Below, one piece after another: positions 1,346 through 21,659 of a stretch of 64,000 nt of DNA. Each line of letters starts with the position of its first letter. Positions within the stretch are counted from its first letter, which is position 1. The translations under genes and the position numbers were made by a program. The notes below the pieces were generated by a model, which was given only the letters and a program-made list of their open reading frames with translations, was not told where the DNA came from and made no database searches. The DNA is taken from contig NZ_NESH01000001.1 of NCBI RefSeq assembly GCF_003063355.1, forward strand, positions 868,001-932,000. The letters run 5' to 3'. The stretch is from Limnohabitans sp. Bal53 (lineage in GTDB: Bacteria; Pseudomonadota; Gammaproteobacteria; Burkholderiales; Burkholderiaceae_C).

Positions 1346-1786
1346 TCAATCCCCTCGCACCACCAGCACCGGCACAGGGCTCAGCCGAATCACCTGTTCG
1401 GCCCCGCTGCCCAAGAGCATGCGGCCCAAGCCCCTGCGGCCGTGTGTGCCCAGCACCACCAAGTCCGCACCCCAAACGGCTGCCTCGTCGGCCACCGACT
1501 CACCCAAACGCTGGCGCGGCTTGTCCACCACATGCGATTCGGCGTTCACGCCCATGGCCGAGGCCGCGTCCATGGCCTTTTGCAGCAATTGCTTGGCGTT
1601 GTCATGCGCGTAGGTGCGCAAATCGGCCGAAAACTCATAACTTGTCAGGTGCCGGTCGTCATCGATCACATGCACAAAGCGCACGGTGCCCAGGGCTTCA
1701 CGGGCCATGTCCAGCGCCGTGCGCATGGCTTTATCGCTGGTGTCGCTGCCATCGATGGGCACCAAGATTTTTCTGAACAGGGGCAT
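1346..1786 (-). CDS. Universal stress protein, UspA family
   Basis: The 146-residue protein starts MPLFRKILVPIDGSDTS and ends with VLVVRGD, as typical UspA-fold proteins do. The ATP-binding signature GxxGx9GS is present as GTHGRRGLGRMLLGSGAEQV near residues 113-132, so it belongs to the nucleotide-binding branch. These proteins are cytoplasmic and are induced by starvation or respiratory stress. It is a single gene. The 228 bases between it and the cytochrome b561 gene hold no gene or hairpin that I can support. Confidence 0.92.
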   Translation of the reverse strand: MPLFRKILVPIDGSDTSDKAMRTALDMAREALGTVRFVHVIDDDRHLTSYEFSADLRTYAHDNAKQLLQKAMDAASAMGVNAESHVVDKPRQRLGESVADEAAVWGADLVVLGTHGRRGLGRMLLGSGAEQVIRLSPVPVLVVRGD

Positions 1787-19113: not shown

Positions 19114-19698
19114 TCAACTGCGCTGCAGTTTGTAAACCGCCGTGCCCGCCATCAGGTTGGGCCACAGGCGAACTTCTTGGCCTTGCTGCAGGCCAAAAGC
19201 GTCCATGATGCGCAACTGGTTTTTGCGGGCCAAGTCGCCAAAGTCGGCGTAGGTGCCCACCCGGATGTTGGGCGTGTCGTACCACTGGTAAGGCAGGCGC
19301 TTGGTCACCGGCATGCGGCCTTGCAACACGCTCAGGCGGTTGAACCAGTGCGCAAAGTTGGGAAAGGCCACGATGCCCACGCGGCCCACGCGCACGGTCT
19401 CGCGCAGCATGGTCTCGGCGTTGCGCAGGTGTTGCAGCGTGTCGATTTGCAGCACCACGTCAAACGACTGGTCAGCAAACAGGCTCAGGCCCTCGTCCAG
19501 GTTCAGCTGGATCACGTTCACGCCGCGCTTGACGCAGGCGTGCACATTGGCGTCGTCCAGCTCCACACCGTAACCGGTGCAGCCCTTGTGTTGCTGCAGA
19601 TAGGCCAGCAAGGCCCCATCGCCACAGCCCAAATCGAGCACGCGGGCGCCTTGTGGCACCAGGCGGGCAATGGCTTGCATGATCAGGGGGTCGCTCAT
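19114..19698 (-). CDS. metW: Methionine biosynthesis protein MetW
   Basis: The 194-residue protein is a class I methyltransferase-fold protein with the SAM-binding motif [15 protein letters not shown] at about 20-34. It starts inside the metX stop (four-base overlap), the standard arrangement in Proteobacteria where MetX and MetW act together in acylating homoserine. MetW stimulates or completes the acyltransferase rather than acting as a known methylase. It should be under the same SAM-responsive leader as metX. Confidence 0.95.
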
Positions 19699-20849
19699 GC
19701 GGCACCTCCTTGTTCCAAAGTCTTGGCCATGTTGTCAAAGTAAGAGCGCACGACGCTCATGTAGCGCGCATCCGCGAGCAAGAAAGCGTCGTGCCCGTGC
19801 GGTGCATCGATTTCGGCGTAGCTCACGTCGCGGTGGTTGTCGAGCAGGGCCTTGACCATCTCGCGGCTGCGGGCGGGAGAGAAGCGCCAGTCGGTGCTGA
19901 AGCTGATCAACAAGAACTTGCAGCTCGCGCGGGCCAGCGCTTTGGACAGGTCGCCGCCAAAGGCGCGGGCCGGGTCAAAGTAATCGAGCGCCCGTGTGAT
20001 CAGCAAATAGGTGTTCGCGTCAAAGTACTCGCTGAACTTGTCGCCCTGGTAGCGCAGGTAGCTCTCGATCTGGAACTCCACTTCTTGTGTGGAATATTTG
20101 TAGCCGGTGGCGTTGTGCGTCACCGCCGCGCGCAGCTCGCGGCCAAACTTTTCGTTCATCACGTCGTCGCTCAGGTACGTGATGTGGCCAATCATGCGGG
20201 CGATGCGCAGGCCGCGCTTGGGCACCACGCCCTTTGCGTAAAAGTGACCGTCGTTGAAATCCGGATCGGTCACGATGGCGCGGCGGGCCACTTCGTTGAA
20301 GGCGATGTTTTCGGCGTTCAGGTTGGGGGCGCTCGCCACCACCAAGGCGTGTTTCACGCGCTCGGGGTATTGCAGCGTCCAAGACAGCGCCTGCATGCCG
20401 CCGAGACTCCCGCCCATCACGGCGGCCAATTTTTCAATGCCCAATGCATCGAGCAAGCGGGCTTGTGCGTTGACCCAGTCTTCCACCGTGACCACCGGAA
20501 AGTCCGCGCCGTACACGCGCCCGGTGTCGGGGTTCACATGCATGGGGCCGGTCGAGCCAAAGCACGAGCCCAGGTTGTTCACGCCGATCACAAAAAAGCG
20601 GTCGGTGTCGAGCGACTTGCCGGGGCCGATCATGTTGTCCCACCAGCCCAGGTTTTTGGGCTGGTCGGCGTACACGCCCGCCACATGGTGCGAGGCGTTG
20701 AGCGCGTGGCAGATCAGCACGGCGTTGGATTTGTCGGCATTGAGCGTGCCGTAGGTTTCGTAGCTCAGCGAGTAGCCACGGATGGACGCGCCGCTTTGCA
20801 AAGGCAAAGGGGCTTCAAACAGCATGCTTTGGGATTCGGCGATCAGCAT
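19695..20849 (-). CDS. metX: Homoserine O-acyltransferase MetX
   Basis: The 384-residue alpha/beta hydrolase activates homoserine in the first committed step of methionine synthesis. The nucleophile is S148 in [10 protein letters not shown], and the acid-histidine end of the triad is in [10 protein letters not shown] near 355. Many MetX proteins with MetW in Proteobacteria use succinyl-CoA rather than acetyl-CoA, so the acyl donor is left open. The leader carries a SAM-II type aptamer and a terminator. No strong ribosome site is seen before the ATG. Confidence 0.95.
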
Positions 20850-20868
20850 CGAATGTGTTCAGGTGTGC

Positions 20869-20910
20869 AAAAAAACAAAACCCGGCTTCGCAGTCAGCTG
20901 GGCCGGGCTT
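20869..20910 (-). terminator. Intrinsic terminator in the metX leader (attenuator)
   Basis: On the minus strand a GCCCGGC/GCCGGG stem is followed by TTTTGTTTTTTT. It stands between the SAM-binding element and metX, ending 20 bases ahead of the metX start. Placement suggests conditional termination controlled by the upstream aptamer. Confidence 0.8.
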
Positions 20911-20927
20911 CAGTGGGTTGAAACACA

Positions 20928-20993
20928 CGCCATTTAGCTGAATTTCGAAACCATCGTGGTTTCGGCGCCCGCAATCGGGTTCAAATCGGCGCA
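20928..20993 (-). promoter_or_regulatory. SAM-II (SAM-alpha) riboswitch aptamer for metX-metW
   Basis: Read on the minus strand, GCGCCGATTTGAACC, then GATTGC, then GGCGCC form the SAM-II P1 stem and loop, and ATTCAGCTAAATGG supplies the conserved AGCTAAA pseudoknot strand. This order matches the known class, which controls metA/metX genes. An extra 8-bp hairpin (CGAAACCA/TGGTTTCG, 20946-20964) is inserted between P1 and the pseudoknot strand. A terminator follows. Binding of SAM should turn metX-metW off. No covariance search was done. Confidence 0.8.
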
Positions 20994-21000
20994 TGGCCTA

Positions 21001-21006
21001 AGTATA
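21001..21006 (-). promoter_or_regulatory. Probable -10 box of the metX transcript
   Basis: TATACT on the minus strand lies just upstream of the riboswitch, so transcription would begin almost at the aptamer's first stem. The -35 region is weak. Confidence 0.45.
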
Positions 21007-21092
21007 AGGGCGATAAATCAGGCCCTGCACCGAAGCAGCGCAAGGCTTCGCCCAGCCGAGGTTTCCATTGTTTAGGTCGCTTTGCAGACGCT

Positions 21093-21659
21093 TCAGCTGC
21101 CCCAATCCGACAAGGCAATCACGCCCAGCACGGCGAAGATGCCTGCCGAGATCAGGTGCACCAAGCGAAGCGGCACACGTTTGGTGATGGCGTCGCCCAG
21201 CCACACCACCGGGGCGTTGGCCAGCATCATGCCCAGTGTGGTGCCTGCGACCACCATGAACCAAGCGTTGTATTGCGCGGCCAGCATCACCGTGGCAATC
21301 TGGGTCTTATCGCCCATCTCAGCCAGAAAAAAGGCCACCACGGTGGTCAAAAACACGCCCATGCGCGGGGCGCTGTCGCCCTCTTCGTCGTCCAGCTTGT
21401 CGGGAATCAGCATCCACGCCGCCATCGCGATGAAGGACGCACCCAGCACCCAGCGCAGCACATCGGGCCCCAGCACGGTGGTGACCCAGCTGCCCAAGGC
21501 ACCGGCCAGGCCATGGTTGGCCAAGGTGGCCACCAAAATGCCGAGCACGATGGGCCAAGGTTGGCGAAAACGGGCGGCCAGCACGAGTGACAAAAGCTGG
21601 GTTTTGTCACCCATTTCGGCCAAAGCCACGATGCCAGTAGAGACGAGGAAAGCTTCCAT
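21093..21659 (-). CDS. GDT1/TMEM165 family cation transporter (UPF0016)
   Basis: The 188-residue membrane protein has two copies of the family motif EMGDKTQ, one near residue 15 and one near 110, each in a three-helix repeat. Family members move Mn2+ or Ca2+ across membranes; bacterial ones often export manganese. It is a single gene. I looked for a yybP-ykoY manganese riboswitch upstream and saw none. Its upstream region abuts the amtB control region. Confidence 0.9.
   Translation of the reverse strand: MEAFLVSTGIVALAEMGDKTQLLSLVLAARFRQPWPIVLGILVATLANHGLAGALGSWVTTVLGPDVLRWVLGASFIAMAAWMLIPDKLDDEEGDSAPRMGVFLTTVVAFFLAEMGDKTQIATVMLAAQYNAWFMVVAGTTLGMMLANAPVVWLGDAITKRVPLRLVHLISAGIFAVLGVIALSDWGS

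Follow-up and report, generated by a model that had tools for sequence, protein, structure and literature searches.

We found that the leader of the methionine-biosynthesis gene metX in the freshwater bacterium Limnohabitans sp. Bal53, read on the minus strand at 20992-20869 of the 64,000-nucleotide stretch analysed here (the window), is, judged by sequence comparison, a divergent variant of the SAM-II riboswitch lineage, although by Rfam's rule it is not a member of the SAM-II family RF00521. Judged by its published description, the element is already in print as the metXZ RNA of Leyn et al. (2014; PMC4239095), which a preliminary description of this DNA had overlooked. Taken as a whole, the leader is probably a SAM-II-lineage RNA that carries a peripheral hairpin in loop L3 and works as a transcriptional OFF switch for SAM.

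The gene behind the leader, metX (19695-20849, minus strand), is recognised by NCBIfam MetX_succinyl (655.3 bits, cut-off 560), with homoserine O-succinyltransferase as the best NCBIfam model, and by PRK00175 (566.7 bits, cut-off 331). The next gene of the operon is metW (19114-19698, minus strand; Pfam MetW, 205.7 bits), and the nearest MetX relatives found are those of Limnohabitans, at 97%. All parts of the leader lie on the minus strand. P1 is formed by GCGCC (20988-20992) and GGCGC (20965-20969), and between these strands lie GATTTG (20982-20987), the L1 third strand of the SAM-II core, which is common to most betaproteobacterial and other rows of our alignment, and TTGC (20971-20974), the 5' strand of the pseudoknot P2. 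Its partner GCTAAA (20933-20938) is kept between the betaproteobacterial and the other rows. Loop L3 consists of an inserted 8-bp hairpin, CGAAACCACGATGGTTTCG, to be read as CGAAACCA-CGA-TGGTTTCG (20946-20964), and an A-rich tail, AAATTCA (20939-20945), and a similar tail occurs with or without a hairpin. Every part of the SAM-II core that the preliminary description had placed before metX was recovered at its position.

A candidate -10 box, TATACT (21001-21006, minus strand), lies 8 nt 5' of P1. The word TATA[CA]T was found within 45 nt 5' of P1 in 81 of 82 element-bearing metX leaders, at a median distance of 8 nt, while a promoter scan gave nothing that reached its threshold at the focal leader. 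On the 3' side of GCTAAA, the focal leader and its closest Limnohabitans relatives carry TGGCGTGTGTTTC (20932-20920, minus strand), a possible pairing partner of the P1 5' strand and GATTT (aptamer-alone fold, -23.5 kcal/mol). Such an alternative fold is impossible with the GAGG-type tails of other relatives.

At Rfam's own cut-offs, no family matched anywhere in the window. When all matches up to E 10 were displayed for 20700-21150, RF00521 reached 12.2 bits (E 3.7) and covered 20992-20965 only; the gathering score of 36 bits that it misses is an operational rule and not biology. SAM-V and the SAM-II long loops family RF01726 were absent from the matches up to E 10 and were set aside. A search of the whole focal genome with RF00521 was empty at E 1. 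Above its cut-off, the model was found in 26/150 genomes of the order and 31/200 of the phylum, and in each case in 0/14 control genomes; at E 1 it matched 116/150 genomes of the order, but also 7/14 controls. Twenty order-level loci were read, none of which has the hairpin. Ten of them precede metX (tblastn), and the remaining ten, by eye, metZ (7), metK, metH and a MATE operon; for the metK, the metH and one metZ, gene fragments gave the same result in NCBIfam. A cmscan of 16 loci from the family separated the two types: RF00521 reached E 0.5 at 6/6 hairpin-less loci, one of them above the cut-off, versus 0/10 hairpin-bearing loci. Thus, RF00521 misses the focal element because the hairpin insert splits the match, and not for want of kinship. 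The SAM-II label of the preliminary description failed at the Rfam cut-off, but the insert explains the miss and relatives in the 26 genomes pass.

The kinship itself was assessed in an alignment of the 20 order-level sequences with 25 of 30 phylum-wide loci, five near-copies being left out. Over these 20 betaproteobacterial and 25 other sequences, P1 and P2 form the H-type pseudoknot of SAM-II. P1 is 99.6% paired with compensatory changes, and two-sided cells over all helices number 89 compared with 40.8 after shuffling (0/500). In the distinct rows the inner P2 pairs are kept as G-C in 44/44 and as C-G in 37/44, and the outer part of P2 shows two-sided changes at 4/6 pairs with 63.9% of cells paired. 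The focal row agrees with P1 and the inner P2; in its closest Limnohabitans relatives the GG of the outer P2 stands in a shifted register. UUU of L1, UUGC and GCUAAA, which in keeping with the SAM-V literature are the strands with the bases that touch SAM, are present in the window and common to most of the 25 non-betaproteobacterial rows.

Two covariance models were then compared at the focal site. R1, built from the cross-group alignment without hairpin-bearing rows, gave 23.2 bits in two pieces (E 5.7e-4 in the window, 0.033 genome-wide), where the 5' half was found and the 3' half was not significant. R2 was built from 21 hairpin-bearing leaders, none labelled Limnohabitans, although several come from metagenome genomes that are possibly near Limnohabitans. 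It found the whole element with 70.5 bits (E 5.4e-19), the next place in the window having 11.7 bits. Among 36 hairpin-bearing leaders, P1 and the GC/GC pairs of P2 are invariant, so that covariation within that group says nothing on these helices.

To describe the hairpin, we examined 101 metX loci, comprising the window, 20 loci from a DNA search (with matches in 21/120 family genomes) and 80 named loci; they are the nearest MetX relatives and not a census, and with duplicates among them (L009/L065, L015/L107) the counts are not independent. The element was found by pattern in 82, was absent from 17 and was cut by contig ends in 2; the 82 were chosen by GATTTG-like, TTGC and GCTAAA letters, whose presence there proves nothing. 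The hairpin occurs in 53 of the 82, always at one fixed point of L3, directly 3' of P1 and ending 5' of the A-rich tail. L3 measures 24-41 nt with the hairpin, and 12-13 nt, unfolded, in the other 29 leaders.

The focal hairpin (20964-20946) folds with -8.3 kcal/mol (z -3.36; 0/200 shuffles equally stable), and 37/40 distinct inserts reach p <=0.05 against mononucleotide shuffles. In 36 distinct leaders, chosen without five long inserts (L017, L068, L077, L096, L115) and identical copies, 6 of the 7 aligned pairs change on both sides. Here 86.9% of cells are paired, a percentage lowered by a few rows that stand one column off (L009 and L015 for certain). The whole-structure covariation score is 0.192 versus 0.098 after shuffling (0/500), and slid versions stay at or below 0.096. 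Both the extra helix and the paired changes across metX leaders that the preliminary description had led us to look for were therefore found, and we take the hairpin to be a real helix, probably peripheral, that was repeatedly gained or lost.

Whether this helix has a task of its own, be it protein binding, a second level of control or a share in the switch, is a question on which the pairing retained through sequence change in many species speaks for a function. We nevertheless consider such a role unlikely. On the MetX tree of 100 rows, the hairpin changes 9 times among the element-bearing rows. Including the element-less rows raises the number to 13, of which well supported branches force at least 4. 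The insert measures about 17-34 nt, inspection by eye shows no conserved loop, and terminators follow the element with (53/53) and without (27/29) the hairpin. The hairpin is most likely dispensable and lies at the periphery, as a short helix that would replace the start of L3 right behind P1 and possibly stacks on it. Judged by analogy from the SAM-II fold, the start of L3 presumably lies at the foot of P1 and not near the ligand site. In another family of the order, L217 has a separate long insert at the same L3 point, before a metZ-like gene (by eye).

Downstream of the pseudoknot, the stretch 20912-20869 is more stable than expected (-20.1 kcal/mol, z -3.49, 1/200 shuffles equally stable), and contains a hairpin of -18.0 kcal/mol (20878-20910) with a T-run (20869-20880), both on the minus strand. 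The strong terminator of the preliminary description is therefore upheld, although a consensus terminator scan left it unreported, probably because that scan allows only loops of 3-8 bases. For the leaders we used a folding-based finder. It detected a terminator 3' of the element in 80/82 metX leaders, versus 1/82 after mononucleotide shuffling, and the two exceptions, L016 and L098, look terminator-like by eye.

The terminators share a motif. CCCG lies in the first 9 nt of the 5' arm in 70/73 distinct leader terminators versus 9/128 other hairpin-T-run sites of the examined loci and the window (Fisher p 7e-40, with related rows in the comparison). This stricter comparison replaced earlier generic controls (6/257, 13/295), which included many hairpins that are hardly terminators, and one of the nine control cases is in reality the L086 leader, in which a contig end truncates the aptamer. 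CCCG is also kept in 18/18 terminators found in the 20 order-level leaders; the base that follows it can be any of the four and takes part in a pair in 15/18.

From these features we propose that the metX leader is most likely a transcriptional OFF switch. Binding of SAM would let P1 and P2 lock the GCGGGC strand, so that the terminator forms and metX-metW is switched off. In the absence of SAM, the free GCGGGC strand could pair with CCCG in the 5' arm of the terminator and the polymerase would pass. In the window, the putative antiterminator strand is CGGGC at 20967-20971 (minus strand), which runs from the final base of the P2 strand through a single linker base into the P1 3' strand, and its candidate partner is GCCCG at 20904-20908 (minus strand), singled out by the conservation of CCCG. 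The direction of the switch and the antiterminator pairing are our proposals. The latter is kept as such because own aptamers and own terminator arms pair about as well as swapped ones (mean -11.09 versus -10.64, 452/5000, with 2 of 34 rows, L024 and L030, mis-cut), the positions in a duplex scan for the best antiterminator were scattered, and L032, in which no terminator was detected, retains the GCGGGC strand. Kinship with SAM-II, the pairing of the hairpin, the terminator and the conserved CCCG all emerge from comparison across genomes. In L032 (about 1500-1580, minus strand), GAGG stands inside the P2 strand before metX and ATG just behind GCTAAA, which is apparently a translational version of the element.

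The preliminary description took attenuation to be unusual for SAM-II. This does not agree with the literature, according to which SAM-II riboswitches mostly act on transcription and only a minor subset acts on translation (PMC6061858), and data on S. meliloti metZ were reported to be consistent with termination (PMC9373788). Leyn et al. made a similar antiterminator-type guess for regions 3 and 4 of metXZ (PMC4239095). In B. thailandensis, 0.05 mM methionine served as the repressing condition for a metX 5'UTR fusion, and regulation by the 5'UTRs of metX, metZ and metK is called confirmed but unpublished there (PMC8814607).

SAM is the probable ligand. A SAM-II relative with a changed ligand or direction, sensing another metabolite of the methionine cycle, is a reading that we regard as quite improbable. 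It finds a precedent in the spermidine variants of SAM-I (PMC10853860), and 124/150 genomes of the order have no match above the RF00521 cut-off. However, the core strands agree with those of other SAM-II sequences, and the genes that adjoin the elements, metX-metW in the window and metX, metZ, metH and metK in relatives, fit feedback by SAM.

A constitutive terminator or a small RNA derived from the leader, with an aptamer that no longer senses in the Limnohabitans lineage, is very improbable in our view. The 17 of 101 metX loci without the element and the shifted P2 register of the closest Limnohabitans relatives would fit such a loss. Against it, the smallest well supported MetX-tree set that includes the window has 17 rows, and every one of them keeps the full core pattern even as the hairpin sequence drifts. 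The 17 metX loci without the element are L060, L063, L073, L075, L089, L093, L094, L100, L102, L105, L108, L109, L111, L114, L116, L118 and L122; in L118, a TATACT box directly precedes the metX start, an arrangement expected of a leaderless mRNA.

That metX has no obvious ribosome site, as the preliminary description observed, is correct and moreover general. Counting only named loci whose first matched codon is the start codon, a word resembling a Shine-Dalgarno (SD) sequence precedes metX in 1/46 element-bearing leaders and in 0/14 element-less genes, versus 28/28 metK genes. The lack of this site at metX in the group is therefore independent of the presence of the element. Further upstream, about 660-850 nt from the metX element, L006 carries a manganese riboswitch (RF00080, 671-850, 83.2 bits) and L008 a match just below the cut-off of 45 (691-841, 43.8 bits). 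The window has a gene for a GDT1 cation antiporter at 21093-21659 and no RF00080 match above the cut-off.

That the functional RNA is the opposite strand, a small RNA of Rfam RF02424, is barely credible: this model matches the plus strand of the window over its full length (20875-21027, 28.2 bits, E 1.6e-4) but stays well below its cut-off of 70, the T-run terminator, the candidate -10 box and the gene order all agree with the minus strand, and of the 30 RF02424 places listed for 150 genomes, 19 overlap with a SAM-II match listed for the other strand. With 28.2 of 70 bits on the strand opposite metX, the plus-strand RNA was set aside. Two of the 11 listed places without such an overlap were read: one is the window, and the other, L217, shows a SAM-II core on the opposite strand. 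RF02424, the Bp2_287 sRNA, appears from these overlaps to be a model of the reverse strand of the SAM-II element.

The focal genome holds a second candidate of this lineage. R1, the model without hairpin, has a stronger match directly before metK (29.8 bits, E 8.7e-4) on the plus strand at G000:C1:109235-109313 (L153:1501-1579). An element of this type was found in 29/30 metK leaders of the family, and the exception, L204, has a misplaced start; for L189, L201, L207, L210, L213 and L214 the 170 nt inspected do not reach the 5' end. Its order is P1, GAGTTA (instead of GATTTG), TTGC and GCTAAAGCGTTCGC, followed by a pairing partner that resembles GGCAACGC and by an SD of the GGAG type, which CUCC could mask. 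Many metK-type elements have long L3 inserts. In 16 metK leaders chosen without such inserts, 95.3% of cells are paired and 3 P1 pairs show two-sided changes, whereas the downstream helix shows none in these leaders. No Rfam family scored above its cut-off at the metK elements in 12 loci scanned at E 1, where SAM-II has the best score, 26.8 bits (E 0.046). At E 0.01, a model of the metK element had matches in 55/120 genomes of the order, some of them at terminator-type sites, and metK was downstream in 12/20 of the loci read. A further place in the focal genome, L240 (G000:C22:351987-352102), has a degenerate-looking metK-type element with GCTGTCAATG instead of GCTAAAG (27.3 bits), and no pathway gene was recognised near it by eye.

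Moreover, two successive GCTAAAG cores were read in gene orientation, within 1300-1900 of the locus, in 8/16 loci (L219, L232, L233, L234, L235, L236, L237 and L042). In the six that were inspected by eye, a terminator-type element is followed by a metK-type element. The genes behind the tandem cores are, by eye, a MATE family gene in seven loci and metZ in one (L235). NCBIfam confirmed the MATE gene in L233 only, where a small ORF without NCBIfam match precedes it.

Overall, our data suggest a wider picture, to which we give an even chance: in Burkholderiales, much of the methionine and SAM economy may be under one diversified SAM-II lineage that databases have largely missed. This lineage would include terminator-type elements of metX, metZ and metH that repeatedly gain an L3 hairpin, a distinct metK element that shares the core but has an SD-blocking platform, and tandem pairs of both types before a MATE-exporter operon. 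If so, the exporter would be a SAM-controlled transporter, and the metK element would close a gap left by the 2014 survey.

SAM-II in beta-proteobacteria as such is not new, since Betaproteobacteria are already among the holders of SAM-II in a listing of 2007 (PMC2258182). In the open-access literature searched, we found no report that joins metXZ with SAM-II or describes the hairpin. Within the literature searched, the new points would thus be that metXZ is, from its sequence, related to SAM-II and takes hairpin inserts and, as far as the searches go, the SAM-II-like metK element, the tandem SAM-II before the MATE operon and the apparent identity of RF02424 as a reverse strand. The metX leader likely matters mainly by giving an identity to the published but unassigned metXZ; as a variant it is moderately interesting, and the metK and tandem elements are livelier leads. 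If our reading is true, the orphan metXZ gains a class and a testable ligand, an Rfam small-RNA family is marked as the reverse strand of a riboswitch, and it becomes easier to see why Rfam scans overlook SAM-II in many beta-proteobacteria. The compact SAM-II fold would also have a natural site that accepts an extra helix, which could serve crystallography or RNA engineering.

Among known systems, metXZ is the closest. Leyn et al. described it before metX or metZ in 35 beta-proteobacterial genomes, including 10/11 genomes of Comamonadaceae, and called it novel, giving it no ligand or class; their scan with Rfam profiles placed SAM_alpha only in Rhizobiales and Rhodobacterales (PMC4239095). Like metXZ, which is located upstream of metX(W) or metZ and has a proposed pseudoknot, an alternative fold and a non-conserved terminator with a T-run (PMC4239095), the focal RNA is a beta-proteobacterial metX(W) leader in which a pseudoknot is followed by a terminator. 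The comparison was made with the published description in words.

With SAM-II (RF00521, SAM_alpha), the focal element shares P1, the L1 third strand, TTGC, the A-rich L3, GCTAAA, the methionine genes and the terminators, and it differs in the L3 hairpin, in P1 (GCGCC/GGCGC), in the shifted outer P2 and in a score below the cut-off. RF01726, introduced as SAM-II with long loops from Bacteroidetes and marine sequences (Weinberg et al. 2010, PMC2864571), shares the SAM-II name but does not match the focal leader up to E 10. SAM-V has a ligand site closely similar to that of SAM-II (PMC6061858); unlike the switch proposed here it is translational, and it too gave no match up to E 10. The Bp2_287 sRNA of Burkholderia (RF02424) occupies the same kind of site, for which Rfam models the opposite strand, and for this candidate, Bp2_Cand287, a cis-acting element of methionine metabolism was already suggested in 2012 (PMC3521395).
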